This document shows positions 1,294 through 44,394 of a stretch of DNA of 64,000 nt, one piece after another. Under the pieces are notes generated by a model. It made no database searches and had not been told where the DNA came from. It saw nothing but the letters and a program-made list of their open reading frames with translations. The translations under genes and the position numbers were made by a program. Source of the stretch: Haloferax elongans ATCC BAA-1513 (GTDB lineage Archaea; Halobacteriota; Halobacteria; Halobacteriales; Haloferacaceae); assembly GCF_000336755.1 (NCBI RefSeq), contig NZ_AOLK01000021.1, positions 247,531 to 311,530 of the forward strand. The letters run 5' to 3'. Within the stretch, counting starts at the first letter, position 1. Every line of letters starts with the position of its first letter.

Positions 1294-4200
1294 TCACCGA
1301 AGCAACTCGGCGACTTTCTCAATCGGGTGCGGAGGTCTGTGCGTGGCTTCATCTCGGTCTGTGAGTTGCGTCCGACACGACGCCCCGGGTGCGACCACGG
1401 TGTCGCCGCTGCTCTCGTCCACCTGCTCGAACAGGATTCGGCCGATGGCTTTCGAGAGGTCATAATGCTCGGACTCGTAGCCGAAACTCCCGGCCATCCC
1501 GCAGCATCCCGAATCGAGTGGGTCCACGTCGTAGCCGACGCGCCGGAGCACACCGACTGCGTGGTGGTCCTTGTTCAGCGCCTTCTGATTACAGTGGCCG
1601 TGGTAGGTCAATGACTCGGGCGAGTTGCGGCCGCCGTCTGCCGCGGCTTGGGGAGTCGCAGCCGAACTCCCCGCTCGTCCTCGAACGTCGAGTTGTTCGT
1701 CGAGTCGGAATACGTCGATGAACTCCATGACGCCGTAGGCGGCCGCGCCGACGTCCAATGCGGCCTGTCCATCGAGCAGGTCGGCGTACTCGTCTTGGAA
1801 CATCACCGCGTCGGACGGTTCGGTGAACACGACCGACCAGCCGTCTTCGACGAATGGCCGCAAGCGCCGGACGTTGTGATGTGCCCGCTGGCGCGCCACG
1901 TCGAGGAAGCCGCCGGAGAAGGCTGCCCGGCCGCTCGGAGCGACGTTTTCGGCGAGTTTGACGTGGACGCCCGCCGCTTCGAGGGTTCGCACTGCGGCCT
2001 TGCCCACCTCGGGAGACACGTAGTTCGTGTACGTATCTGGGAACAGAAGCACCCGGTGGGTCGCGTCGGTCGGGGAGACTGCAGACCGTCGGCTGTTCAT
2101 CCAGCGTTCGAGCGTGTTCCGGGTGAACGTCGGCAGGTCTCTGTCGGCAGCGATGCCGAGATAGCGGTCCATCACGGCCCGTGCCCCGGGAACCGCCGTG
2201 AGCCAGTTCGAGACTGGTGCGAGTTTGCTCCCTAACTTCGCCGCGGCGTCGATTTGCGCGAAGAGTCGCTCCCGGACTGACGACCCTTCTTCGGTGTGGT
2301 ACTGGTGTTTGACCTCGGCTTTCAACTTCGCGAGGTCCACGCCCGTCGGGCAGTCGTTCTTGCAGCCCTTACACCCGATACAGAGGTCGAGCACCTCTTT
2401 TTGGAATCGCTCGGCGTACAGCTCTGATTCGGGCAGGTCGCCGCTGATGGCCGCGCGAAGCATGTTCGCCCGGCCGCGGGTCGTCTCCATCTCGTCCCGT
2501 GAGGCGCGGTAGGTCGGACACATCGTTTCGGACCCCGTCTGTCGGCAGGTGCCACACCCGTTGCACAGTTCGACGAGATGCGAAAACCCGCCTTCGTCGT
2601 CGAAATCGAGTGCCGTGGTTGGTTCGAGCGAAGAGTATTCTGGCCCGTAGCGAAGGTGCTCGCGCATATCAGTCGGGTCGTCGTCGCGATAGACGACTTT
2701 CCCCGGGTTCATCCGCCACTCGGGGTCGAACGCGGATTTGAGGTCCTTGAACGCCTCCCAGAGGTCCGGGCCGTACATCTTCGGATTCCACTCGGTTCGC
2801 GCGAGACCGTCGCCGTGTTCACCCGAGAACGCGCCGTGGTGCGCCAACACGAGGTCGGTCACGTCGTCGGTAATCGAGTGCATCGTCTCGATGCCGTCGG
2901 CGTCTTTCAGGTTCAAGATGGGCCGAATGTGGAGCGTGCCGACCCCGGCGTGGGCGAAGTAGGCGGCCGACGTGCCGTGGTCGGCCAGCACCGCCTCGAA
3001 CGACTGGACGTACTCGGCGAGTTCCTCGGGCGGAACGCTCGCGTCCTCGATGAACGGGTAGGGCTTCGGGTCGCCCGGAAGTGACATGAGAAGCGGAATC
3101 GCCGCCTTTCGGAGCTTCCAGATGTCACCCTGCGCCTCGTCGGAGTAGGCTTCGATGGCGTCGAAGGCGGTGCCGCCGCCGTCCTCATCGGTGTGGGCGT
3201 CCCGTTCGGCGTGGGCATCTCCGTCGTTGTGGGCATCCCCGTCGGCGTGGCTGTCGTCCGATTCGAGGAAGTGCTCGTTCGCCCGCCGAATCGTCGCCTC
3301 GAAGTCGTCGTGCAACTCGGAGTCGAACTCCAGCATCAGCGTCGCGGCCGCCCCGTCGGGAATCTGCTCGACGTACTGGGCGTACTCGCTGGACTCGCGG
3401 GCCATCCGAAACACCTCGTCGTCCATGAGTTCGACCGCGCTGGCGTCGAAGTCGAGAGCGTCCGGAACCGCGGCCATCGCGTCGACGAGGTCGTTGTAAG
3501 CGTAGAGGACGAGCGCCGTTTCCTCGGGGACCGTCACCAGCGAGATGGTCGCTTCGACCACCACGCCGAGTGTCCCCTCGGCACCGACGAACAGCTTCGA
3601 GAGGTTGATGACGCGCTCGCCGTCGTCGTTCTCGAAGACGACCTTGTGGAGGTTGTAGCCAGACACGCAGCGTTTGAGTTCGGGATACCGGCGTTCGATT
3701 TCGGCGTCGTTGTCCTCGACGAGCGCCCGGACAGTCCGATAAATCTCGGCCTCGCGGTCGTCTTTCGAGACGATGTCGTCCCACTCGTCGCTGTCGAGCA
3801 CGACGTCGCGGGTGTGAATCTCCGACCCGTCGGCGAGGACGACGCGCAACTCCTCGGTGTAGGCGTCGGTGATACCGTACCGAACCGAGTGCGCACCGGT
3901 CGAGTTGTTGCCGATGCCGCCGCCGATGGTGGCGCGGTTCGACGATGCCGGGTCGGGCGCGAACTTGAGACCGTACTGCGCAAGGTGGTCGTCGAGGTCG
4001 TCTTGCACCACGCCGGGTTGGACTGTCGCCCGGCGGTTCTCGGGGTCAACCGCGACGATGTCGTCCATGTACTTCGAGAAGTCGAGGACGACACAGCCGG
4101 GACCGACAGACTGTCCCGCGAGCGACGACCCGGCACCGCGCGGCAGAATCGGTACGTCGTGCTCGGCCGCTGTCTCGACTGCTGCGCGAACGTCCGCGAC

Positions 4201-4455
4201 GGTTTTCGGGATGACGGCGCCCGCCGGGCGCGCCCCGTAAATCGACCCGTCGGTCGCGTACAACACCTGCGTGTACTCGTCGAACCGAACCTCTCCAGCG
4301 ACGACGCTACGCAAGTCTGCCGCCAGCGCGGCGTACTCGGCCACGTCAGCTACGTCGTAGGCCTGCGACTCCTGAAACGCCTGCAAGTCACTCAGGTCGC
4401 CGCCGCCCGTCGTCGCGGGTGGTCGGGTCGCCCGCGTCTGGTCGTCGCCAGTCAT
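1294..4455 (-). CDS. FAD-linked oxidase fused to Fe-S / CCG domain (D-lactate dehydrogenase or glycolate oxidase-like)
   Basis: A 1053-aa protein fusing GlcD/Dld-type flavoprotein and GlpC/GlcF-type iron-sulfur parts, probably oxidising a 2-hydroxyacid such as D-lactate and passing electrons to the membrane quinone pool. Visible domains: FAD-binding PCMH domain (LPRGAGSSLAGQSVG near residue 100; ATIGGGIGNNSTGAH), FAD-oxidase C-terminal domain, two 4Fe-4S motifs (CNGCGTCRQTG and CIGCKGCKNDCPTG), and a C-terminal cysteine-rich CCG domain (GHCNQKAL, DSGCCGMAGSFG). ATG 4455 is chosen; another ATG is two codons upstream. A four-copy hexapeptide repeat rich in Asp and His interrupts the oxidase domain near residues 400-425 and is probably a surface insertion. 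The substrate is not fixed by sequence. Confidence 0.88.
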   Translation of the reverse strand: MTGDDQTRATRPPATTGGGDLSDLQAFQESQAYDVADVAEYAALAADLRSVVAGEVRFDEYTQVLYATDGSIYGARPAGAVIPKTVADVRAAVETAAEHDVPILPRGAGSSLAGQSVGPGCVVLDFSKYMDDIVAVDPENRRATVQPGVVQDDLDDHLAQYGLKFAPDPASSNRATIGGGIGNNSTGAHSVRYGITDAYTEELRVVLADGSEIHTRDVVLDSDEWDDIVSKDDREAEIYRTVRALVEDNDAEIERRYPELKRCVSGYNLHKVVFENDDGERVINLSKLFVGAEGTLGVVVEATISLVTVPEETALVLYAYNDLVDAMAAVPDALDFDASAVELMDDEVFRMARESSEYAQYVEQIPDGAAATLMLEFDSELHDDFEATIRRANEHFLESDDSHADGDAHNDGDAHAERDAHTDEDGGGTAFDAIEAYSDEAQGDIWKLRKAAIPLLMSLPGDPKPYPFIEDASVPPEELAEYVQSFEAVLADHGTSAAYFAHAGVGTLHIRPILNLKDADGIETMHSITDDVTDLVLAHHGAFSGEHGDGLARTEWNPKMYGPDLWEAFKDLKSAFDPEWRMNPGKVVYRDDDPTDMREHLRYGPEYSSLEPTTALDFDDEGGFSHLVELCNGCGTCRQTGSETMCPTYRASRDEMETTRGRANMLRAAISGDLPESELYAERFQKEVLDLCIGCKGCKNDCPTGVDLAKLKAEVKHQYHTEEGSSVRERLFAQIDAAAKLGSKLAPVSNWLTAVPGARAVMDRYLGIAADRDLPTFTRNTLERWMNSRRSAVSPTDATHRVLLFPDTYTNYVSPEVGKAAVRTLEAAGVHVKLAENVAPSGRAAFSGGFLDVARQRAHHNVRRLRPFVEDGWSVVFTEPSDAVMFQDEYADLLDGQAALDVGAAAYGVMEFIDVFRLDEQLDVRGRAGSSAATPQAAADGGRNSPESLTYHGHCNQKALNKDHHAVGVLRRVGYDVDPLDSGCCGMAGSFGYESEHYDLSKAIGRILFEQVDESSGDTVVAPGASCRTQLTDRDEATHRPPHPIEKVAELLR
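3193..3264 (-). repeat. 18-bp coding minisatellite (4 units) in the FAD oxidase
   Basis: Four tandem 18-bp units at 3193-3210, 3211-3228, 3229-3246 and 3247-3264. In the coding direction they give the hexapeptides ESDDSH, ADGDAH, NDGDAH and AERDAH. The unit is a multiple of three, so copy number could vary without shifting the frame. Confidence 0.85.
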
Positions 4456-4519
4456 TATCATATATAATCATGTAAATAGTGAAAAGTGTGTGTGCAGGCC
4501 GTCACATTTGCCAGCCTCG

Positions 4520-4536
4520 GTAACTGTCACAGTTAC
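4520..4536. promoter_or_regulatory. 17-bp perfect palindrome upstream of the FAD oxidase
   Basis: GTAACTG-TCA-CAGTTAC: two perfect 7-bp arms around a 3-bp centre, 65-81 bp upstream of the oxidase start at 4455. The position suits an activator or repressor site. It could instead form a hairpin in a readthrough transcript, since the next gene on the same strand starts 126 bp downstream of the oxidase start region only on the other side. The binding protein is unknown. Confidence 0.5.
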
Positions 4537-4542
4537 TGGAAC

Positions 4543-4576
4543 GTGATACAGTGGTCGAGGTGATACAGTGGTCGAG
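4543..4576. repeat. Perfect 17-bp tandem duplication
   Basis: The unit gtgatacagtggtcgag occurs twice head-to-tail (4543-4559 and 4560-4576) in the gap between the surface protein gene (stop at 4582) and the oxidase. The exact identity suggests a recent duplication. It lies next to the 17-bp palindrome. Confidence 0.9.
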
Positions 4577-4581
4577 AGGAC

Positions 4582-5394
4582 TCACTGTGGCAGATTTCGG
4601 GGATAGTTTCCGACACCAGTCTCGGCGGCCCCCTCGACGATGACCCACCCGCGCTGGTCGGCCGGTAGGTCGTAGACGTACACGCGGTCGGTGTACTCGT
4701 TGTAGTTCCATCCGCCGACCCACCACGAGTTGGTGCCGCGGAGTTCGACAGTCACGGACAGTTCGGTCGTCTCCGGGCCGTCGTACGAGACGAATATCTG
4801 CGTGTCGTAGCTGTAACACTGCACGTCGTCGTCCTCGTACGGCCACGCACAGGGGACTGCGGTCACGTTCGACCGCGGTTCGAACAGCGGTTCTGTCCCT
4901 TCGGGTGCTCGGGTTTCGACAGAGCGGTTCACCGTCCGGTCGGCGGTCAACTCGATTGCATCGTGGTCGACTCTGACGACATCGGTGTCGTTTTGGTCGT
5001 ACTCGTCGGCCGAGACTCGTTCCCACCGAACGAGTCGGTCGTTTTCAATGACCGGGCGGTGATACGTCGGGTCGGCCGGGAGTTCGTCAGCTTGGAGTCT
5101 GAGCATCGGTCCGTACTCCGTTTCGACTACGTCGTACGACCACGTCTCGGGGAGTAGGTACTCCCGCGTCTCGATGACGTCCGCGACGGGCGAGTCGCCG
5201 TCGACGACCGGCAACGGGGCCAAGATGGTCACGTTCGAAATCGGCTCGTTCGCCGAGACGCGGACTTCGTAGGAGTACTCGCTCCCGTAGGAGTTCAAAA
5301 ACGAGAGTCGCCCGAACGCCCAGAGGCCACCACCGATTGTGGCGACCACGAGGAGGACGGCGACGGCGACGATACCGAGTGTGCGGGACTTCAT
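4582..5394 (-). CDS. Membrane-anchored extracellular protein, unknown function
   Basis: A 270-aa protein not recognised as a known family. It starts with a hydrophobic segment at about residues 6-28 (TLGIVAVAVLLVVATIGGG) after a short positive N-terminus, which fits an uncleaved signal anchor with the rest outside the cell. The remainder is acidic, rich in Thr/Tyr/Trp and beta-prone, has N-x-S/T sequons (NVT, NDT, NRS) usable for archaeal N-glycosylation, and has two cysteines (VPCAWPY and VQCYSYD) that could pair. The stop of the FAD oxidase promoter region lies upstream and the flavodoxin gene ends 3 bp away (start 5394, flavodoxin stop 5398), so it may be co-transcribed downstream of the flavodoxin gene. 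Confidence 0.75.
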   Translation of the reverse strand: MKSRTLGIVAVAVLLVVATIGGGLWAFGRLSFLNSYGSEYSYEVRVSANEPISNVTILAPLPVVDGDSPVADVIETREYLLPETWSYDVVETEYGPMLRLQADELPADPTYHRPVIENDRLVRWERVSADEYDQNDTDVVRVDHDAIELTADRTVNRSVETRAPEGTEPLFEPRSNVTAVPCAWPYEDDDVQCYSYDTQIFVSYDGPETTELSVTVELRGTNSWWVGGWNYNEYTDRVYVYDLPADQRGWVIVEGAAETGVGNYPRNLPQ

Positions 5395-5397
5395 GCC

Positions 5398-6000
5398 TTA
5401 CACGGACGTTTCTTCGGGCTCGCCACCAGCCGCCACGTCGCCGTCGACCGCCACGTCACCCGCCTCGACGAGGGCGGCGAAGTCGGTGGCGAACGCCTCG
5501 ACTTCGTCCCAATCGGTGTACTCGTAGTCTTGGGAGGTATCCGTCTCGCCGATGGTCTCCTGCGTGATGCGCTTCATTATCATCCGCGTGAAGAACCCGT
5601 ACTTCGAGTAGCGGAGCGCACCCCCGAAGGCTCCGATTCGGTCCGGTTCCCACCCAGTCTTCTCGACGAACTCCTCGATGTACTCGGCGACGTGCGCGTC
5701 GCTCTCTTTGCTCGGGAACGCCGACGACAGCGACACTTGGAAGAACGCATTCGGCCGCGTTTCGAGTGCCTCGCGGTGCTCCCTGACGAAGCGGTGTACC
5801 TTCGTTCCGTGCTTGCCCATGTGGATGGACGACCCGACGAGCACCGCGTCGAAGTCCTCGACCGACAGGTCTGTCGGAACGTCGGCGACTGAGACCGCAG
5901 TTGCTTCGTGGCCCCGGCCGTCGAGTACTGCGACGATTCGCTCAGCTATCTTCTCGGTCTGTCCCTCTTTGCTGCCGTATGCGACGAGAAACGATATCAT
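5398..6000 (-). CDS. Flavodoxin-domain protein (HemG-like)
   Basis: A 200-aa flavodoxin-fold protein. The N-terminal VAYGSKEGQTEKIAERI is the FMN-phosphate-binding loop, followed by DAVLVGSSIHMGKH and FFQVSLSSAFPS in the usual flavodoxin order. This arrangement matches the menaquinone-dependent protoporphyrinogen IX dehydrogenase HemG family, but haloarchaea contain many paralogues, so a haem role is inference only. ATG 6000 is preferred over two upstream in-frame GTG codons. It is divergent from thiE (142-bp gap) and its stop lies 3 bp before the surface-protein start, suggesting a two-gene transcript. Confidence 0.75.
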   Translation of the reverse strand: MISFLVAYGSKEGQTEKIAERIVAVLDGRGHEATAVSVADVPTDLSVEDFDAVLVGSSIHMGKHGTKVHRFVREHREALETRPNAFFQVSLSSAFPSKESDAHVAEYIEEFVEKTGWEPDRIGAFGGALRYSKYGFFTRMIMKRITQETIGETDTSQDYEYTDWDEVEAFATDFAALVEAGDVAVDGDVAAGGEPEETSV

Positions 6001-6141
6001 CACCACTCACCACATGTCGATTCGCTGTCCACCGAGATAACCCCGATAGCAGCCTCTCAGTCGCCGAGAACCGGTCGCTTCGGAAATTCGTCGAATGGTA
6101 ACGACTTTGCCGCCACAGCCGACTACCAACAGATACAACCA

Positions 6142-6786
6142 ATGAATATCCCCATGGACACGTATCTCGTCACCCAGTCGGACCTGTCGGGCGACAGGTC
6201 GACGACCGAGGTCGTCGAGGCCGCGGTCGCCGGTGGCGTGGACTTCGTGCAACTCCGCGAGAAGCAGGCGACTGCCCGCGAGCGCTACGTCCTCGCCAGC
6301 GACGTGCGCGAACTGACAGCCGAGGCGGGCGTCCCGTTCGTCGTCAACGACCGCATCGATATCGCCGCGGCAGTCGACGCCGACGGCGTCCACCTCGGCG
6401 ACGACGACCTCCCGATAGCGGCCGCCCGCGACCAGTTGGGCCGAGACGCCATCGTCGGCCGGTCGGTCTCGACGGTCGAGGCTGCACAGGCCGCGGAAGA
6501 CGCCGGTGCCGACTACCTCGGTGTCGGTGCCGTCTTCGCGACCGACTCGAAAGACATCGACGACGACGAGTACGAAATCGGCGTCGAGCGAGTCGCGGCC
6601 GTCGCAGACGCCGTCTCGATTCCTCTCGTCGGTATCGGAGGTATCACCGCCTCGAACGCGGCTGACGTGGTTGCCGCCGGGGCCGACGGTGTCGCGGTCA
6701 TCACAGAAATCACCGACGCGGGCGACCCCGAAGCTGCGACGCGCCAGCTTGCGACCGCGGTCGACGACGGGAGGGACCGCCAATGA
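6142..6786 (+). CDS. thiE: Thiamine-phosphate synthase
   Basis: Joins HMP pyrophosphate and hydroxyethylthiazole phosphate to thiamine phosphate. A TIM-barrel protein of about 214 aa with family motifs in order: VQLREKQ (pyrophosphate contact), VNDRIDIA, ADGVHLGDDDLP, VGRSVST, YLGVGAVFATDSKD, and the phosphate-binding VGIGGITASNAADVV near the end. Start 6142 (MNIPMDTY) or the second ATG at 6154; both precede the first strand TYLVTQ. The stop overlaps the thiM start by ATGA (6783-6786), so the three thi genes form one translationally coupled operon. No TPP riboswitch is recognisable in the 135-bp upstream gap. Confidence 0.95.
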   Translation: MNIPMDTYLVTQSDLSGDRSTTEVVEAAVAGGVDFVQLREKQATARERYVLASDVRELTAEAGVPFVVNDRIDIAAAVDADGVHLGDDDLPIAAARDQLGRDAIVGRSVSTVEAAQAAEDAGADYLGVGAVFATDSKDIDDDEYEIGVERVAAVADAVSIPLVGIGGITASNAADVVAAGADGVAVITEITDAGDPEAATRQLATAVDDGRDRQ

Positions 6787-38344: not shown

Positions 38345-40030
38345 TCAGCTAGCGAGGTCAGTCGGAGAGACGTCGAACCGCTTGAGGAATTTCTGTACTG
38401 CTTCGTCGCGCCCGACAATCGTGAGTCGTTCATCGCCGGTGAATCGTCGCTGTGGGTCGATATCCACAGTCTGTCCGTCGCTGTCTTGAATCGCGATGAC
38501 GCGACAGCCGGTCTGCTCGTAAATACGAGAGTTTGCGAGTGTCTTCCCGGCGAACTCAGCGGCTGGCACTCGAACGAGGCGAATCTGGCTCGCCGGAGCG
38601 AGGATGTCTTCACCCCGAAGTTCTTTTGCGACCATCCTCGCGCTCACCCTCGGGACCGACAGGACGTAATCTGCACCGGCGGTAAACGCCTTCTGTGTCG
38701 TCTCTGCGTCTCCCACACGGACGAGTATCTCTATTTCGGGGGAGAGAGACTGGGCCAGCGCGGTCGTCAAGAGCGCAATCGAGTCGTCAGGGACGCCGAC
38801 GACGATGGCTCCTGCGGTCTCCACACCTGCTGCGAGCAAGGCCTCTCGGGACCCGCCATCGCCGACGATGTCGACGCCGTCTCGTTCTTCGAGGTCGATT
38901 CCCACGACTTCACCACCAGCCTCCTGAATGACCGACTTGGCAGCCTGTCCGACTTCGCCCAACCCGACGAGAACGAAGCGTTCGTGTTCAGTGAACGACC
39001 GAGGCGGTCGAGTGAACTCGTTTAGCTCTTTGAGCGCGGTTTCCTCGCCAGACACCAGGAGGACGGTGTTTGGACGGACGACGGCGTCCGGGCTGGGTGG
39101 TAACTGCAACTCGCCGTCGAACCAGGCACCGACGATGGTGGCCCCGGTTCGCTCCCTGACCCTCGTGTCCCGGATTCTGCGACCGACCAACTCGCTCGAC
39201 TCGGACACGGGAAGTTCCATCAACTTCGTGGTTCCGCCGATTTCGATGGTGTCTCGCAGCTCTGCACTGAACGAGGCGACGGCTTTCTCTGCAAGGCGGT
39301 GTCCCATAACTGCGTGCGGAGACAACACAGTGTCCGCACCGACGGTGCGCAGTATCCCTTCCATGTCGCTGTCGTCGGTCAGCGCGATGACGTTGATGTC
39401 TGGACGGAGCGTCCGCACAGTGAGTATCGTATTGACGTTCGCGTTGCCAGCGTCGGTAATCACCGCTCGCGCGGTACGGATGCTCGCCCGTTCGAACGTT
39501 GCTGCCGATTGCGGAGAGCCGTGAATCGCGGCGTAGCCGCGGTTCGAGAGCGACTCGGCGTCTTCCCGTGAAGACGAAATGAGCACGTAATCGATGCCCA
39601 GTTCCTTGAGTTCGTCCAGAAGAATCGCGGAGTCCCGACGGTACTCACAGATGATGACGTGGTCGGACTTCGGACTGAGTCGGTCGTCGAGGTTGACTTG
39701 GGCGCTCGTAAACAGCGGAATGATGATGAGACGGAGAGTGAAAAACCCGATTGCGATACCCGAAATCTGAATCGAGGCGACGAACAGGAACATCAGCGGG
39801 TGGCTCCAGATATCCGAGTCTTGACCGTATCCCGTGGTCGTCATCGTCTGGATGACGAATTCGAACGAGGCGAAAATCGACTGGTTGACGCCTTCGAGCC
39901 GCGCCAGGGCGTAATTGTAGGCCACCGCGTAGAAGACCACGAGTGACACGAGCCCGATGACGTAGTAGATGACGTGTCGGATTCGTCGGCTTGGGCCGAA
40001 CCGCCGAACCAACTCGGGAATGGAGGTCAT
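38345..40030 (-). CDS. Potassium channel with two RCK (TrkA) modules
   Basis: A 561-aa K+ channel. Two membrane helices (VIYYVIGLVSLVVFYAVAYNY and MFLFVASIQISGIAIGFFTL) flank the pore loop TMTTTGYG with the selectivity filter at 64-69. The cytoplasmic part has two TrkA-N Rossmann domains (VIICEYRRDSAILLDEL; FVLVGLGEVGQAAKSVI) and two TrkA-C domains, so it probably gates with nucleotide or ligand binding. The first Rossmann GxGxxG is degenerate (CEYRRDS), while the second retains GLGEVG. ATG 40030 is chosen. K+ flux is central to haloarchaeal osmotic balance. Confidence 0.92.
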   Translation of the reverse strand: MTSIPELVRRFGPSRRIRHVIYYVIGLVSLVVFYAVAYNYALARLEGVNQSIFASFEFVIQTMTTTGYGQDSDIWSHPLMFLFVASIQISGIAIGFFTLRLIIIPLFTSAQVNLDDRLSPKSDHVIICEYRRDSAILLDELKELGIDYVLISSSREDAESLSNRGYAAIHGSPQSAATFERASIRTARAVITDAGNANVNTILTVRTLRPDINVIALTDDSDMEGILRTVGADTVLSPHAVMGHRLAEKAVASFSAELRDTIEIGGTTKLMELPVSESSELVGRRIRDTRVRERTGATIVGAWFDGELQLPPSPDAVVRPNTVLLVSGEETALKELNEFTRPPRSFTEHERFVLVGLGEVGQAAKSVIQEAGGEVVGIDLEERDGVDIVGDGGSREALLAAGVETAGAIVVGVPDDSIALLTTALAQSLSPEIEILVRVGDAETTQKAFTAGADYVLSVPRVSARMVAKELRGEDILAPASQIRLVRVPAAEFAGKTLANSRIYEQTGCRVIAIQDSDGQTVDIDPQRRFTGDERLTIVGRDEAVQKFLKRFDVSPTDLAS

Positions 40031-40369
40031 TTTGGGACACGCATAGTAGTACGGAAACAGACAAAACAGTGTGTGCTCTCGGCCGTATGGCAGATTGAGG
40101 GCTGATTGGGTACGTTCAGACGGTTGACGACGTCTGTTCTTCACTGTGTTTGTCACCTTCTGTGCTGTGTTCACGCCGTGATGCCACTCTTCGGTGTGTG
40201 ATGTCGTCCAGAACACTACTGCTCGACAAACTACTAGTAGGTCCTGTAGAGGACGAAACATGGTGGTCGCGACGAAAAGCATATTGTCGATGAGATGTTG
40301 ATCGAGATACGATTTCAAAAATGATAGATTGGACAAAGGTTTAAAATGTCATGAATATCCGCGTACACT
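40031..40369. other. 339-bp gap: left edge of the accessory insert
   Basis: Base composition falls towards AT from about 40130. The gap holds the left direct repeat (40200-40218), a perfect 10-bp palindrome CTACTAGTAG (40231-40240), a following hairpin GTCCT-gtag-AGGAC (40241-40254), and a TATA box tttaaaat (40340-40347) about 26 bp before ATG 40370. No convincing gene is present. Confidence 0.6.
40200..40218. repeat. Left flanking direct repeat
   Basis: GATGTCGTCCAGAACACTA; matches the right copy at 42279-42297 at 18 of 19 positions (T versus C at base 8). Confidence 0.75.
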
Positions 40370-41296
40370 ATGCGAAACACGTTTCGTTGCCCAGATTGCA
40401 ACCGGCACCTCCCTATTTTCATGCAGGCAACCGAGAGAAAATGCCGAGATTGTAGTGAATCTCTACAACAAAATTCGAAGAAGAGGCGAGGAAATAGCTT
40501 AGATGGAGGCTCGGCTTCCTCAACGTCGCCAGAGTCAGAAGACAGTTCGAACGCAGACCCACCAGTGATTTCGGTGAGAGACTCATCGGACCGCGATTTA
40601 GACCCGGAGGAATCTAACGACGATTCTTCATATAACCCACCTTCAGTGGATTATCCTGCAGAGAATCCTCCAGTTCAGATCTACTACCAACCCACGATTC
40701 CGGAGGGGTTCCCAGATTTGACTCCGTGTCACATCTTCGGTTTGGGCGAATACCGCTCAAAAAGGAAGGGGAGAAATGAGTTCTCCAGTAAACTCATCGA
40801 TTTTGCCAAAGAAGACGACCTCAGTGAATTCGAGTATTTTGCGCCACACGTCGACTGGTTCATTAAAAATAGGTTTGATGGAGATATTTCCCCGGACTTG
40901 GTTACTGTCTACCCAGGGCACCACGGAGGGTATAGCGACGCACTAGTCAAGGTCTGTAAGGAACTCGAATCGGAGTACGACATCGTTTATCGAGAATTGC
41001 TGTCTCGGACCGAGAACCGACCGCAACAAAAGAATTATAATAGAAATAAAGAAAGGTGGGAAAATCAAGATGGTAGCATCTCAACAACGCGGTCACTATC
41101 TGGTGAAACAGTGTTACTGCTTGACGACGTGACTACATCGGGTGCATCGGTCACTGTAGGCAAGAACGAGCTTGAGGACGCAGGGGCTAATCAAGCCATA
41201 GGACTCTGTTTGGGTATCTCCAAGCGATCACGGAGCATATACCACCACCTCAAAGAAGCAACGCACACCGTCGGGAGTGTGATTAGCGATGAGTGA
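40370..41296 (+). CDS. ComFC-like zinc-ribbon phosphoribosyltransferase
   Basis: A 308-aa protein. The N-terminus is a zinc ribbon (C7-x2-C10, C25-x2-C28), then an acidic Ser-rich linker (about 35-95) and a C-terminal PRTase domain whose PRPP loop is VLLLDDVTTSGAS (248-260), with YPGHHGGYSDAL at 181-192 nearby. ComFC proteins share the zinc-ribbon-plus-PRTase plan and help DNA uptake in bacteria; here the protein could also be a PRTase of a DprA-linked defence or DNA-processing module. The gene has a TATA box and overlaps the DprA-like start by 8 bp. GC is lower than in neighbours. Confidence 0.75.
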   Translation: MRNTFRCPDCNRHLPIFMQATERKCRDCSESLQQNSKKRRGNSLDGGSASSTSPESEDSSNADPPVISVRDSSDRDLDPEESNDDSSYNPPSVDYPAENPPVQIYYQPTIPEGFPDLTPCHIFGLGEYRSKRKGRNEFSSKLIDFAKEDDLSEFEYFAPHVDWFIKNRFDGDISPDLVTVYPGHHGGYSDALVKVCKELESEYDIVYRELLSRTENRPQQKNYNRNKERWENQDGSISTTRSLSGETVLLLDDVTTSGASVTVGKNELEDAGANQAIGLCLGISKRSRSIYHHLKEATHTVGSVISDE

Positions 41297-42206
41297 TCTA
41301 ACCGTTGAGCAGCAAGCGAAACTTCTGGCTCTAACCGATTTGAAGGGTGTCGGCGATAAGCGTGCTCAAAAACTCGTGTCGGTGGCTCGCGGCGTCGATT
41401 CGGTGTATGAAAGTCCCTTCTCTACGTTATCTGATCTTCACTACGTATCCGAGCAGACGTTTACGCAGTTGCAGGATTTAGATTCGGAGATCAGCCGGTA
41501 CGAGTCACAAATTCGGCGAGCGGCCGAAGATGGTGTTTCATTGGCGACTCCCTACGATAGTCTGTATCCAGAACAACTCCAGACACAGCACGCACCACTG
41601 AAGTTGTTCACGAAAGGCGACGAAAGCCTCCTTACCAGCCCGATGGTTTCCTTTGCTGGCTCTCGCGATGCAAATGACTCCGCAATTGAATGGGCCAGTC
41701 GAATTGCAGGGGGGCTCGCCGACGAAGGTTATACAATTGTCAGCGGGGGTGCATTTGGCATTGACGCCGCTGCCCACCGTGCGGCATTAGATAAGCGGGG
41801 GTCCACAATCATCGTCTCACCGAGCGGGCACAACGTTCCCTATCCAAAGGCACATGAGGAACTATTCAAACGCGTCATCAACGAGGGGCTTGTGATTTCC
41901 CACCGATTCCCCAACCAAGACCCGGCGCGAGGCGGCTTCCTCTATCGGAATAGAACGAATTCAGCTCTAAGTGAGGCAATCATTATCGCGGCTGCGAGTG
42001 ACGACGGCGGCTCCATGTCGCAGTTCGAGACTGCGGTCAAACAGGGGAAGACGGTTTTCGTTCCCGACGAATCGGTCGGACCACTGCCGGATTCAGGACT
42101 CGCGGAAATGCGTGCATCTGATGATACGGTCGTCGTGGAGTCGCTGGGAGACGTACTTGACGAAATTAATGTGAACGATGGACAAAGTTCACTCAATGAC
42201 TGGTGA
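41289..42206 (+). CDS. DprA/Smf-like DNA-processing protein
   Basis: A 305-aa protein with an N-terminal helix-hairpin-helix (TDLKGVGDKRAQKLV) and the DprA Rossmann domain: VSFAGSRDANDSA, TIVSGGAFGIDAAAHRAAL, FLYRNRTNSALSEAIIIAAAS and the GKTVFVPDE strand. Bacterial DprA binds single-stranded DNA and loads RecA during transformation; LOG/DprA-fold proteins also appear in some conflict systems. A C-terminal winged-helix seen in some DprA proteins is not visible. The 8-bp overlap with the PRTase gene implies coupled translation and a shared task. GC is lower than in the surrounding genome. Confidence 0.85.
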   Translation: MSDLTVEQQAKLLALTDLKGVGDKRAQKLVSVARGVDSVYESPFSTLSDLHYVSEQTFTQLQDLDSEISRYESQIRRAAEDGVSLATPYDSLYPEQLQTQHAPLKLFTKGDESLLTSPMVSFAGSRDANDSAIEWASRIAGGLADEGYTIVSGGAFGIDAAAHRAALDKRGSTIIVSPSGHNVPYPKAHEELFKRVINEGLVISHRFPNQDPARGGFLYRNRTNSALSEAIIIAAASDDGGSMSQFETAVKQGKTVFVPDESVGPLPDSGLAEMRASDDTVVVESLGDVLDEINVNDGQSSLNDW

Positions 42207-42278
42207 TTGCAGGTACGATCGCGCCACCAAGTAACGCGACACCGACCCTGATTACTCACATGACAGTTATTTTTGAAG

Positions 42279-42297
42279 GATGTCGCCCAGAACACTA
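42279..42297. repeat. Right flanking direct repeat
   Basis: GATGTCGCCCAGAACACTA, one mismatch to 40200-40218. It lies 72 bp after the DprA-like stop. Confidence 0.75.
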
Positions 42298-42435
42298 ACG
42301 GCCGGTATCATCCCGAGGCGGCGTGCCGCGTCAACCGGGAAACCCTCGTGCCAGGCGGTCCGTCTTTCGGGCGCGGACGTTCCGAAGTACACCGGCGTCA
42401 GCCGGTCAGTAGAGCAGCGTAACCGCTGCGTTTGA
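42280..42435 (+). other. Hairpin-rich stretch with a 51-codon ORF
   Basis: Immediately right of the direct repeat. Inverted repeats in order: GCGGC-gt-GCCGC (42318-42329), GTCCG/CGGAC (42358-42378), ACCGGC-GTCA-GCCGGT (42391-42406) and GCAGCG-TAAC-CGCTGC (42414-42429). This density suggests a structured RNA or an element end. An ORF starting at ATG 42280 inside the repeat runs 51 codons to TGA 42433, but I cannot tell whether it is made. The remainder of the 42207-42540 gap has nothing I can support. Confidence 0.4.
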
Positions 42436-42540
42436 TGTCGCGTACCTGGGTTCGCCGTTCTGTCATCGCTCCCGAAGTGGGACCACTCGGACGGGGACTT
42501 GTGGTACGCACCCGCTCTAGTTCGGCAGGGGTAAAACGAG

Positions 42541-42960
42541 TTACGACCGAACCCGCTCGTCGCCCTCGAAGAAGACGGCGCGGACGCGGACGACCTGCCC
42601 ATCGATTCGGATGTAGTACAGGCGGTCGTTCGGCCCGCCAGCTTCGGGCAGTCGTTCGAGGTTGTTTCGAAGCGACTCGTAGTCGCTGAGACAGTCGGAG
42701 ATACTCGACTCGCGAGGGTGCCCGCTGGCGGCCCCTTCGACGACCTGCTTAATCCATGGACTCTCCGCGACTCGTGAGTCTTCTGCGCTCACGACGGTGG
42801 CGTTCGGCGGTGCGTTTCCGACCAACTCCGCGCGCAGATATATCTCGTCGTTCGAACACCCGCGAAAGGACGAACATCCCGCGAGAGACGCCACGGCGCC
42901 GGCACTCGCAACTGCGAGACCGATTCGGAGGAGGCGGCGGCGTGACGGTGGGGACCTCAT
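42541..42960 (-). CDS. Tat-type lipoprotein, unknown function
   Basis: A 139-aa protein with a twin/triple-arginine start (RRRLLRIGLAVASAGAVA) and lipobox SLAGC, C29 being the likely lipidated residue. Haloarchaea export many lipoproteins by Tat. The mature part is short, has Cys34 and Cys near residue 88 and ends in a basic tail; no family was recognised. It follows the accessory insert and is at normal GC. Codon start ATG 42960. Confidence 0.72.
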   Translation of the reverse strand: MRSPPSRRRLLRIGLAVASAGAVASLAGCSSFRGCSNDEIYLRAELVGNAPPNATVVSAEDSRVAESPWIKQVVEGAASGHPRESSISDCLSDYESLRNNLERLPEAGGPNDRLYYIRIDGQVVRVRAVFFEGDERVRS

Positions 42961-43002
42961 TGTAGGTCAAATTATCGGAATCTGAAATAAAACTTCTGTC
43001 GC

Positions 43003-44394
43003 CTACAACGTGTACTCAGATTCCGTCAACTGGACGTACTTGCCGTTCCTGAACTTGACCTTCGTCCGTTTGTACTTCGTCGCGAGCTTTGCGGCACTGA
43101 ATCCGGCGGTGAGTTTCGCTCGGTCGAACGCCTTGTACCCTTTATCCGAGTCGAGAAGCTTCCGGGCAGCCTTGAACGTCGTGTCCCAGTCGCTGGGTCC
43201 GTAATCGTGGACGATGTCGGCCATCGCGACGTTCCGAAGAATCTCGTCGCCGATGGCGTCTTTCCAGCGCGTGTTGTACTCGCTCAGGTCGCCTTCGGCG
43301 GCGAGTTCGCCCGCGATAGCACCGGTTCTGACCGCAACGTGGTCGCCCCCCTCGTGGAAGGCGGAGGTCGAACCCATCGCACCGCCGGTGACGGCGATGC
43401 CTGCTTTCGTCGGCGAGTCGATGGGGCGCGTCGAGGAGATAGAGTAGGTTTCTGTCCCTTTGGACTTTCCGCGCTCTTCGACGAGTGGGAAGTCCTCGTC
43501 GATATCGTATTCGTCGCCGTACTCCTGTTCGAGGAGTCGGCGAACGTACTCACGGCCCTGCGGGACTTTCTCGTCGTCTTCACGCAGGAGCTTGTAATTA
43601 TCGCGGTCGTCCACCTCGTCGATGTCGAGCCCGATAGGCATCGTCAGGCCGACGCGGCAGACGTTGTTGTCGTTCGGGAAGACCCACGGATACGCCGTGT
43701 GGCCGGGCATGTAGCCCCACCAGAACTTGATTCCGCCGTCGACTTCCTCGAACAACTCGGGCGGGAACTCCCGGTGTTCTTGGTAGGCGATGTGGTTCAC
43801 CTTCGGCGAGGCGAGACGCTCTGTGATGTCGAACGGGAGGAAGTCGTCGAGCACCTTGTTCGTGACCGTCCGCTGTGGCCCGTCGGCGAGGATGAGGAAG
43901 TCCGCGCCAACGTTTTCGCCGTTGGCCAGTCGGACGACGTGTCGCGGGTCGTCCTCGCCGCCCGTCGCGTTGAGGTCAGTCTCCACGTCGCGGACGGAGG
44001 CTTTCAGACGATATCCGGCGCCCGCTTCCTCGGAGCGGCTTCGCATCCAGTCGTCGAACTTCGCGCGGTGGAAGGTGTACCCGAACTCGTCGTACGACGA
44101 GTCGATGCCGGTACTTCGAAGCGTCACGGTCTCGTTCGGGCCGATGAACTCAGCCCGGTCGAGAATGTCGAGGACGACGTCGTCCGGCATCTCGTCGGGG
44201 TGGATTCCCATGATGTCCACCCAGTAGTCGAGAATCCCGGCCGCGTCCGTCGAATCCGGGCCGAGACCCTGTCGGTCGGCGCGGGGGACGCCCTTCTCCA
44301 GGACTACGGTGGACGCACCGGCTGATGCGGCGGCGTGTGCCGCCGAGGTTCCAGCCGGGCCGCCACCGACGATAGCGACGTCTACGCGTTCCAT
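43003..44394 (-). CDS. Geranylgeranyl-reductase family flavoprotein
   Basis: A 463-aa FAD-dependent oxidoreductase of the geranylgeranyl reductase family, which saturates the isoprenoid chains of archaeal membrane lipids. VAIVGGGPAGTSAAHAAASAGASTVV is the Rossmann FAD loop, followed by FIGPNETVTLRSTG, FLILADGPQRTV (DG motif) and GIAVTGGAMGSTSAFHEGGDHVAVRTG, where the second FAD contact lies. It is a family call; other GGR paralogues act on chlorophyll or quinone chains. ATG 44394 (MERVDVAIVGG) is chosen because the FAD loop begins at once. Confidence 0.75.
   Translation of the reverse strand: MERVDVAIVGGGPAGTSAAHAAASAGASTVVLEKGVPRADRQGLGPDSTDAAGILDYWVDIMGIHPDEMPDDVVLDILDRAEFIGPNETVTLRSTGIDSSYDEFGYTFHRAKFDDWMRSRSEEAGAGYRLKASVRDVETDLNATGGEDDPRHVVRLANGENVGADFLILADGPQRTVTNKVLDDFLPFDITERLASPKVNHIAYQEHREFPPELFEEVDGGIKFWWGYMPGHTAYPWVFPNDNNVCRVGLTMPIGLDIDEVDDRDNYKLLREDDEKVPQGREYVRRLLEQEYGDEYDIDEDFPLVEERGKSKGTETYSISSTRPIDSPTKAGIAVTGGAMGSTSAFHEGGDHVAVRTGAIAGELAAEGDLSEYNTRWKDAIGDEILRNVAMADIVHDYGPSDWDTTFKAARKLLDSDKGYKAFDRAKLTAGFSAAKLATKYKRTKVKFRNGKYVQLTESEYTL

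Follow-up and report, generated by a model that had tools for sequence, protein, structure and literature searches.

The window analysed here is a stretch of 64,000 nucleotides from the haloarchaeon Haloferax elongans ATCC BAA-1513 (contig NZ_AOLK01000021.1, positions 247,531 to 311,530), and our subject is a 2079-nt segment within it that carries two genes between direct repeats and ends at a structured RNA gene. Both open reading frames (ORFs) lie on the plus strand, ORF1 at 40370-41296 and ORF2 at 41289-42206, and overlap by 8 nt, as an earlier note on this DNA had recorded. The same note had described a base composition well below that of the flanks, and the GC content of the insert is indeed 0.503, against 0.593 in the 5 kb to its left and 0.628 in the 5 kb to its right. 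A putative TATA-like box of the two-gene operon, TTTAAAAT, was read by eye at 40340-40347 (plus strand), 30 nt before the ATG.

ORF1 (308 aa) contains two CxxC pairs that form an N-terminal zinc ribbon, followed by a variable linker and a phosphoribosyltransferase (PRTase) domain with VLLLDDVTTSGAS, which we take to be a phosphoribosyl pyrophosphate (PRPP)-type motif. ORF2 (305 aa) encodes a DprA-like protein of the SLOG type with a weak HHH match at its N terminus. PADLOC assigned ORF1 to ShosT (6.2e-13) and ORF2 to ShosA (1.5e-50), in both cases ahead of PsyrT and PsyrA. ORF2 also matched Pfam DprA (3.3e-48), and the ShosA profile matched the solved ShosA 9vzo (2e-42). The match of ORF1 to Pfam Pribosyltran was at 0.0003 (20.6 bits, under the cut-off of 26.3), and its AlphaFold2 model was weak (mean pLDDT 54), with PRTase folds among the best Foldseek matches. 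Judging from these profile matches, the genes are predicted to form a ShosTA-type toxin-antitoxin defence pair, ORF1 being the predicted toxin and ORF2 the predicted antitoxin. According to a review (PMC12593503), bacterial ShosT disturbs purine metabolism and ShosA binds DNA, and by analogy the archaeal pair is predicted to act likewise. The window pair shares with ShosTA (also PsyrTA/syrTA and RqlHI) the succession of a PRTase toxin gene and a DprA-like antitoxin gene in one operon; it differs in being archaeal, in the zinc ribbon and long variable linker with which ORF1 starts, and in its location on a site-specific cassette next to an RNA gene.

The N-terminal zinc ribbon of ORF1 recurs in the relatives P0121 and P0123, while P0122 as recorded begins later. 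ORF2 has 1032 relatives at 1e-10, the closest being 97% identical and named from Haloferax larsenii. In our sample of the order Halobacteriales (392 genomes, 95 genera), ShosA relatives (E <=1e-30) were found at 13 places in 11 genomes of 9 genera. The earlier note had proposed looking for paired PRTase-DprA genes in other archaea; when this was done, an ORF with a PRPP-type motif was found to end next to ShosA, on its upstream side, at 10 of the 13 haloarchaeal places. Three of these ten ORFs are of the zinc-ribbon type and seven lack the ribbon; of these seven, six extend over about 496-499 codons as far as the stretch edge, and one has 208 codons. At L324-L329 and L332, the upstream protein with the PRPP-type motif is mostly long (about 498 codons to the stretch edge) and without a zinc ribbon, possibly representing helicase-PRTase fusions like PsyrT/RqlH. 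An exact-word search of genome contigs for ShosA relatives found none, a profile search placed one haloarchaeal relative (L208) among the best 80 of 511, and ten DprA relatives (identity 29-56%) were found in viral contigs.

The direct repeats are identical at 18 of 19 positions, at the places given by the earlier note, and with up to two mismatches the motif occurs nowhere else in the 3.95-Mb genome (reversed control, zero). The left repeat (40200-40218, plus strand) consists of a left arm and a 7-nt spacer, AACACTA (40212-40218). The right repeat (42279-42297, plus strand) forms the cassette end, with its spacer at 42291-42297, and doubles as the 3' end of the minus-strand RNA gene. The repeat alone is weak evidence, because comparable 19-mer pairs exist in the window: eight position pairs with at most one mismatch are separated by 200-3000 nt, each of the overlapping positions within a single repeat being counted. 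What decides is the empty site in relatives. In the congener G009, whose flanks are 93.6-95.4% identical, there is one repeat and no genes, and the right-hand homology restarts exactly at 42279; the window flanks joined at the repeat align straight across the G009 site over 159 columns, of which two are gapped and three mismatched. The congeners G011, G004 and G007 likewise have a single repeat without an insert (G011 and G004 also in the joined-flank comparison), while G006 and G010 carry different inserts at the same site. Comparison with relatives, which the earlier note had called for between strains, thus shows that the window segment is an insertion bounded by the repeats, as that note had supposed. 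Full-length ShosA is absent from all 14 other genomes of the genus, G009 having a weak 65-residue match. About 100 bp to the left of the cassette (about 40079-40180) are missing in G009, G011, G004 and G007 and seemingly kept in part in G010; this indel is a separate event, outside the cassette.

The right end of the insert abuts a sequence conserved far beyond the genus. The 147 bp starting with the right repeat match 367 of the 392 sampled genomes, mostly once and mostly over the first 80 bases, and the part conserved order-wide corresponds to 42281-42357 (87 distinct cores). On the minus strand this part reads as a hairpin followed by an ACA box (42283-42281), with two invariant pocket strands and a K-turn-like motif, the last of these read by eye. 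Covariation among 68 distinct sequences shows that the hairpin is conserved as a structure: 96.7% of paired cells are standard and 60 two-sided changes fall in seven pairs, values reached by none of 500 shuffles, and slid controls of the hairpin alignment gave 23-48% pairing. The wobble pairs of the stems point to the minus strand as the probable RNA strand, since they are G-U there but A-C when read from the plus strand. A second H/ACA-like hairpin of the same layout (42436-42509, minus strand; stem GCGTACC/GGTACGC, then ACA) lies upstream on the minus strand, and its 22-nt end, with up to six mismatches, was recovered from 60 of 62 loci; the distance, taken in 20 loci, is 96-274 nt. We label the upstream hairpin HP1 and the landing-site hairpin HP2, names that are our own. 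Taken together, the alignments suggest that the RNA is likely a two-hairpin H/ACA guide RNA. Grosjean 2008 (PMC2584109) described two halobacterial H/ACA hairpins, HP1 and HP2, with a long spacer between them; from this description of the layout, rather than from their sequences, our hairpins would be the same ones. The sections of that paper on these hairpins do not mention a role as landing site. Rfam gave no match in 40000-43200, and no tRNA gene was found in the window. A protein-coding reading from 42280 was rejected, as some relatives lack the ATG and the pattern of changes agrees with stems; a second RNA copy in G263 was considered as an att copy and discarded, being part of a duplicated region.

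In several of the 48 loci first fetched, extra copies of the repeat lie upstream of the RNA; except in G310, what follows them is a shared sequence and not the body of the RNA. The inserts thus delimited, here called cassettes, begin GCCCGG-AACACTA-CCGGGCGA...CTACTAGTAG. The consensus of 90 sites, GAAATGTACGCCCGG-AACACTA-CCGGGCGAGAATCTACTAGTAGGCTCGGTGGAAGTGAAA, consists of inverted arms around the 7-bp spacer plus a palindrome. In the window, the cassette-start site at 40203-40240 (plus strand) comprises the arm, the spacer, the cassette arm CTGCTCGA and the palindrome CTACTAGTAG (40231-40240), and departs from the order-wide pattern at one position. When up to two mismatches are allowed, this pattern occurs in 77 genomes of the sample, from 29 genera, as compared with six genomes, one match each, for the reversed pattern. 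Comparison of the loci shows that the sites are shared, that they form one-way arrays of up to six, and that they keep to one side of the RNA. In loci with the RNA core, a scan of 690,632 bases on its upstream side gave 81 sites (<=4 mismatches), and one of 319,307 bases on its downstream side gave none; none of the 38 loci with sites has one on the other strand, and the RNA stands at the right end of 17 of the 20 array-bearing stretches fetched. The 82 units with strict ends have a median length of 910 bp (10 below 400 bp, 41 of 400-1299 bp and 31 longer). In 66 of the 67 units of at least 400 bp with a usable flank, the GC content is below that of the 3 kb to the right of the RNA, by a mean of 10.7 points, so that the low GC content of the window insert is typical of its class. 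In L182 (G101), two cassette sites at 5739 and 13121, 7.4 kb apart, lie away from the RNA gene, and no core was found in the stretch.

To describe what the cassettes carry, we analysed 149 of their 151 proteins of at least 60 aa; the ORFs were picked by an acidity score, so some will have been missed or wrongly called. The families found include DUF433 (12 proteins), the PIN-like DUF5615 (10), DUF7387 (8) with HicA (5), Fic (5), DUF3368 (4) with UPF0175 (3), and helix-turn-helix (HTH) proteins, which often stand beside a 109-aa protein. Toxin-antitoxin-type clusters or ShosTA are present in 53 of the 73 units of at least 400 bp (48 if HTH alone is excluded), and in 41 of the 44 units of 400-1299 bp (36 under the same exclusion). 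Among the 149 proteins, ShosA was matched in the window cassette only. Genome comparison also shows that cassettes are shared across families: the same cassette, end to end, occurs in G130 (family f4) and G136 (f1) with 97.3% identity over 775 bp, and another in G230 (f1) and G256 (f4) with 95.0% identity over 1104 columns. For comparison, identity between the window and other families is 64-72% over the matched stretches of the neighbouring channel gene.

The earlier note had found no integrase or transposase inside the insert and left this unexplained. The absence is expected of a cassette moved in trans, the repeat then being a recombination site common to many cassettes. Integrase is absent from the 25 Pfam families shown, of 106, for the 149 cassette proteins. 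The eight PF00589 proteins of the genome, intI not among them, were used in a non-exhaustive tblastn search of 73 loci and the window, and gave a match in L141 only, a locus without an array. In 16 more stretches, taken for larger elements further upstream, there was one integrase match (G074), again without an array. We then compared 31 genomes with arrays and 31 without, testing three of the eight PF00589 proteins singly; the other five include L201 and L204 (relatives of L206) and L205 and L207 (relatives of L202). The XerA-like L203 was present in 61 of the 62 genomes tested and in all 60 good ones, its best NCBIfam match being archaeal XerA (108 bits, short of the cut-off of 220). Given that both this enzyme and the site are nearly universal, we chose it as the candidate recombinase.

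Considering these results together, the window segment is probably a predicted ShosTA-type defence cassette, docked at the 3' end of a conserved RNA gene that is likely an H/ACA guide and that likely serves as an integron-like platform of haloarchaea. In the mechanism that we infer, a tyrosine recombinase supplied in trans would work the platform, joining circular cassettes to the RNA gene by site-specific recombination at the 7-bp spacer AACACTA that both contain. This spacer is also part of the invariant pocket strand of the RNA, and because of this each insertion would rebuild the RNA 3' end, as in tRNA-gene integrations. The 12 nt at the site equal the RNA end of the same genome in 51 of 79 cases, against a shuffled expectation of 23.9 and a maximum of 42 in 5000 shuffles; this excess is consistent with a recombinase for which the overlap sequences must be identical, with the qualification that the match is confounded by relatedness. 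ShosT is predicted to act as a PRPP-using toxin held by ShosA until virus infection. A more far-reaching version seems to us evenly balanced between true and false: a haloarchaeal integron-like class in which the 3' end of the essential-looking H/ACA guide-RNA gene would be a universal dock, a XerA-type host recombinase would act in trans, circular toxin-antitoxin and defence cassettes would cross families and stack, and the guide pocket would double as the crossover, making the landing site unlosable.

Several observations weigh against this interpretation. No recombinase was pinned down, and no circular cassette or movement was seen. Among the 31 genomes with and the 31 without arrays, none of the three enzymes screened was discriminating: the L202-type recombinase was present in 11 and 17, respectively (p 0.20), the L206-type in 30 and 26 (p 0.20), and L203 in 30 and 31. 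The RNA core was not found in three of the 20 array loci fetched (L182, L187 and L195), 31 of the 82 strict units measure 1300 bp or longer, some of the long units carry insertion sequence transposases, transporters or host-type genes, and some weak sites with four or more mismatches may be spurious. As to the RNA, the count of further pair types was equalled by 73 of the 500 shuffles, and the fit of its pocket to helix 69 of the genome's own 23S rRNA is only suggestive: it reaches 6+4 bp but ranks 9th, and a neighbouring uridine 25th, of 237 passing positions. As to the genes, ORF1 has only three relatives at E <=1e-5 in a protein search, the cassette site lies within about 1.5 kb of ShosA only for the window copy among the 13 haloarchaeal places, and the PemK match of the 109-aa cassette family is weak (0.018, below the cut-off).

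Bacteria offer a model for what could be seen either as an alternative or as a sub-version of the integron-like platform. Xer-dependent dif/pdif modules are small, often of toxin-antitoxin type, and moved by host Xer enzymes, and the haloarchaeal cassettes resemble them in being small units, often with toxin-antitoxin genes, while differing in site and anchor, the role of Xer being here that of a candidate. The RNA end might accordingly be the natural site of the universal XerA-like recombinase, on which cassettes would hitch-hike. We hold this to be a possibility of somewhat less than even weight: the short inverted arms around a 7-bp spacer, the near-universal presence of the enzyme and the failure to find an integrase nearby speak for it, but L203 is equally common in genomes without arrays, and the site is unlike the 28-bp dif with a 6-bp spacer outlined for Thermococcales (PMC2958812). 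A good deal less probable is that the inserts are shrunken remnants of viruses or plasmids, larger integrative elements whose own integrase targeted the RNA gene and left attL and attR behind. Archaeal integrases commonly integrate at the 3' ends of structured RNA genes, namely tRNA genes (PMC8371274), and G310 carries at the same RNA gene a 2.35-kb insert (L114, about 4174-6522) whose direct repeats are longer and extend into the body of the RNA, and which looks like a different kind of insertion. Independent decay, however, would not be expected to produce sites so uniform, so many units of about 0.9 kb, rows of up to six sites with one orientation, or cassettes near-identical from end to end in different families, and the exact cassette site was not found in IMG/VR viral contigs.

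The earlier note had read the genes as a mobile DNA-processing module, perhaps for uptake or recombination. Its mobile part, an insertion bounded by the repeats, is what the empty sites reveal, but a role in transformation or competence is unlikely, because both genes match the ShosTA pair, which is the best PADLOC match of each, and we give this alternative very little credence. It draws on the ComFC-like layout of ORF1, on its match to NCBIfam comF (7e-07) and on ComF 7p0h as second Foldseek match, as well as on the DprA-like nature of ORF2. Both genes nevertheless fall under the NCBIfam cut-offs (29.3 bits against 233.55 for comF, 146.4 against 191.15 for dprA), ShosA is confined to its 11 genomes, and the other cassettes at the site are mostly of toxin-antitoxin type. 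That the repeat arose by chance, homologous recombination or replication slippage is scarcely credible: short repeats of similar quality do exist elsewhere in the window, but in many genera other inserts in this position are framed by it as well.

With bacterial integrons, the integron-like platform shares tandem, one-way, small cassettes with a common site, a single anchor, and arrays without an adjacent integrase. Bacterial integron cassettes also carry many toxin-antitoxin genes, as the haloarchaeal cassettes do. The differences lie in the sequence of the haloarchaeal site, in the anchor, which is an RNA gene, and in the integrase, which was not found beside the fetched arrays. The core of integron attC sites has the consensus GTTRRRY/RYYYAAC, and a core of this type was not found in the haloarchaeal sites when the consensus of 90 sites was read by eye. 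Archaeal integrons have been reported by Ghaly 2022 (PMC9668308), in whose main text no word begins with 'halo'. The integration of archaeal elements into tRNA genes by tyrosine recombinases, as outlined in PMC8371274, is similar in that the 3' end of a structured RNA is rebuilt and a 7-bp overlap lies between palindromic arms; here the target is an H/ACA-like RNA, and the inserts are mostly cassettes of one or two genes, without an integrase and in arrays. HP1 and HP2 share with the halobacterial hairpins of PMC2584109 the pair of conserved hairpins and the long spacer between them.

What we describe is thus likely an archaeal counterpart of bacterial integrons, situated where a conserved small-RNA gene ends. 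Literature searches, with most subscription journals outside their coverage, found no paper describing a haloarchaeal cassette or integron system. If the interpretation is true, archaea own a cassette-collecting system that extends across a whole order and spreads toxin-antitoxin and defence genes, guide-RNA genes would join the kinds of RNA genes used as integration sites, and haloarchaeal genetics could gain a tool for site-specific insertion. The findings also place in haloarchaea a ShosTA-like pair, of a kind familiar from phage defence in bacteria; the cassette site can serve as a marker in the search for new defence and toxin-antitoxin genes of archaea, and the question of which recombinase moves the cassettes becomes a testable one.

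Two further observations concern the cassettes themselves. Short cassettes without genes (155-305 bp) often adjoin the RNA, and 10 of 11 such units are interrelated, also across families (L036, L118, L122, L123, L181, L185, L189, L195, L196 and L198); they are possibly a mobile non-coding element or RNA. The DUF433/DUF5615 pair is also found, at about 71% identity, on Haloarcula plasmids (NZ_CP119562.1, 94449-95071, and NZ_CP119561.1, 220285-220907).

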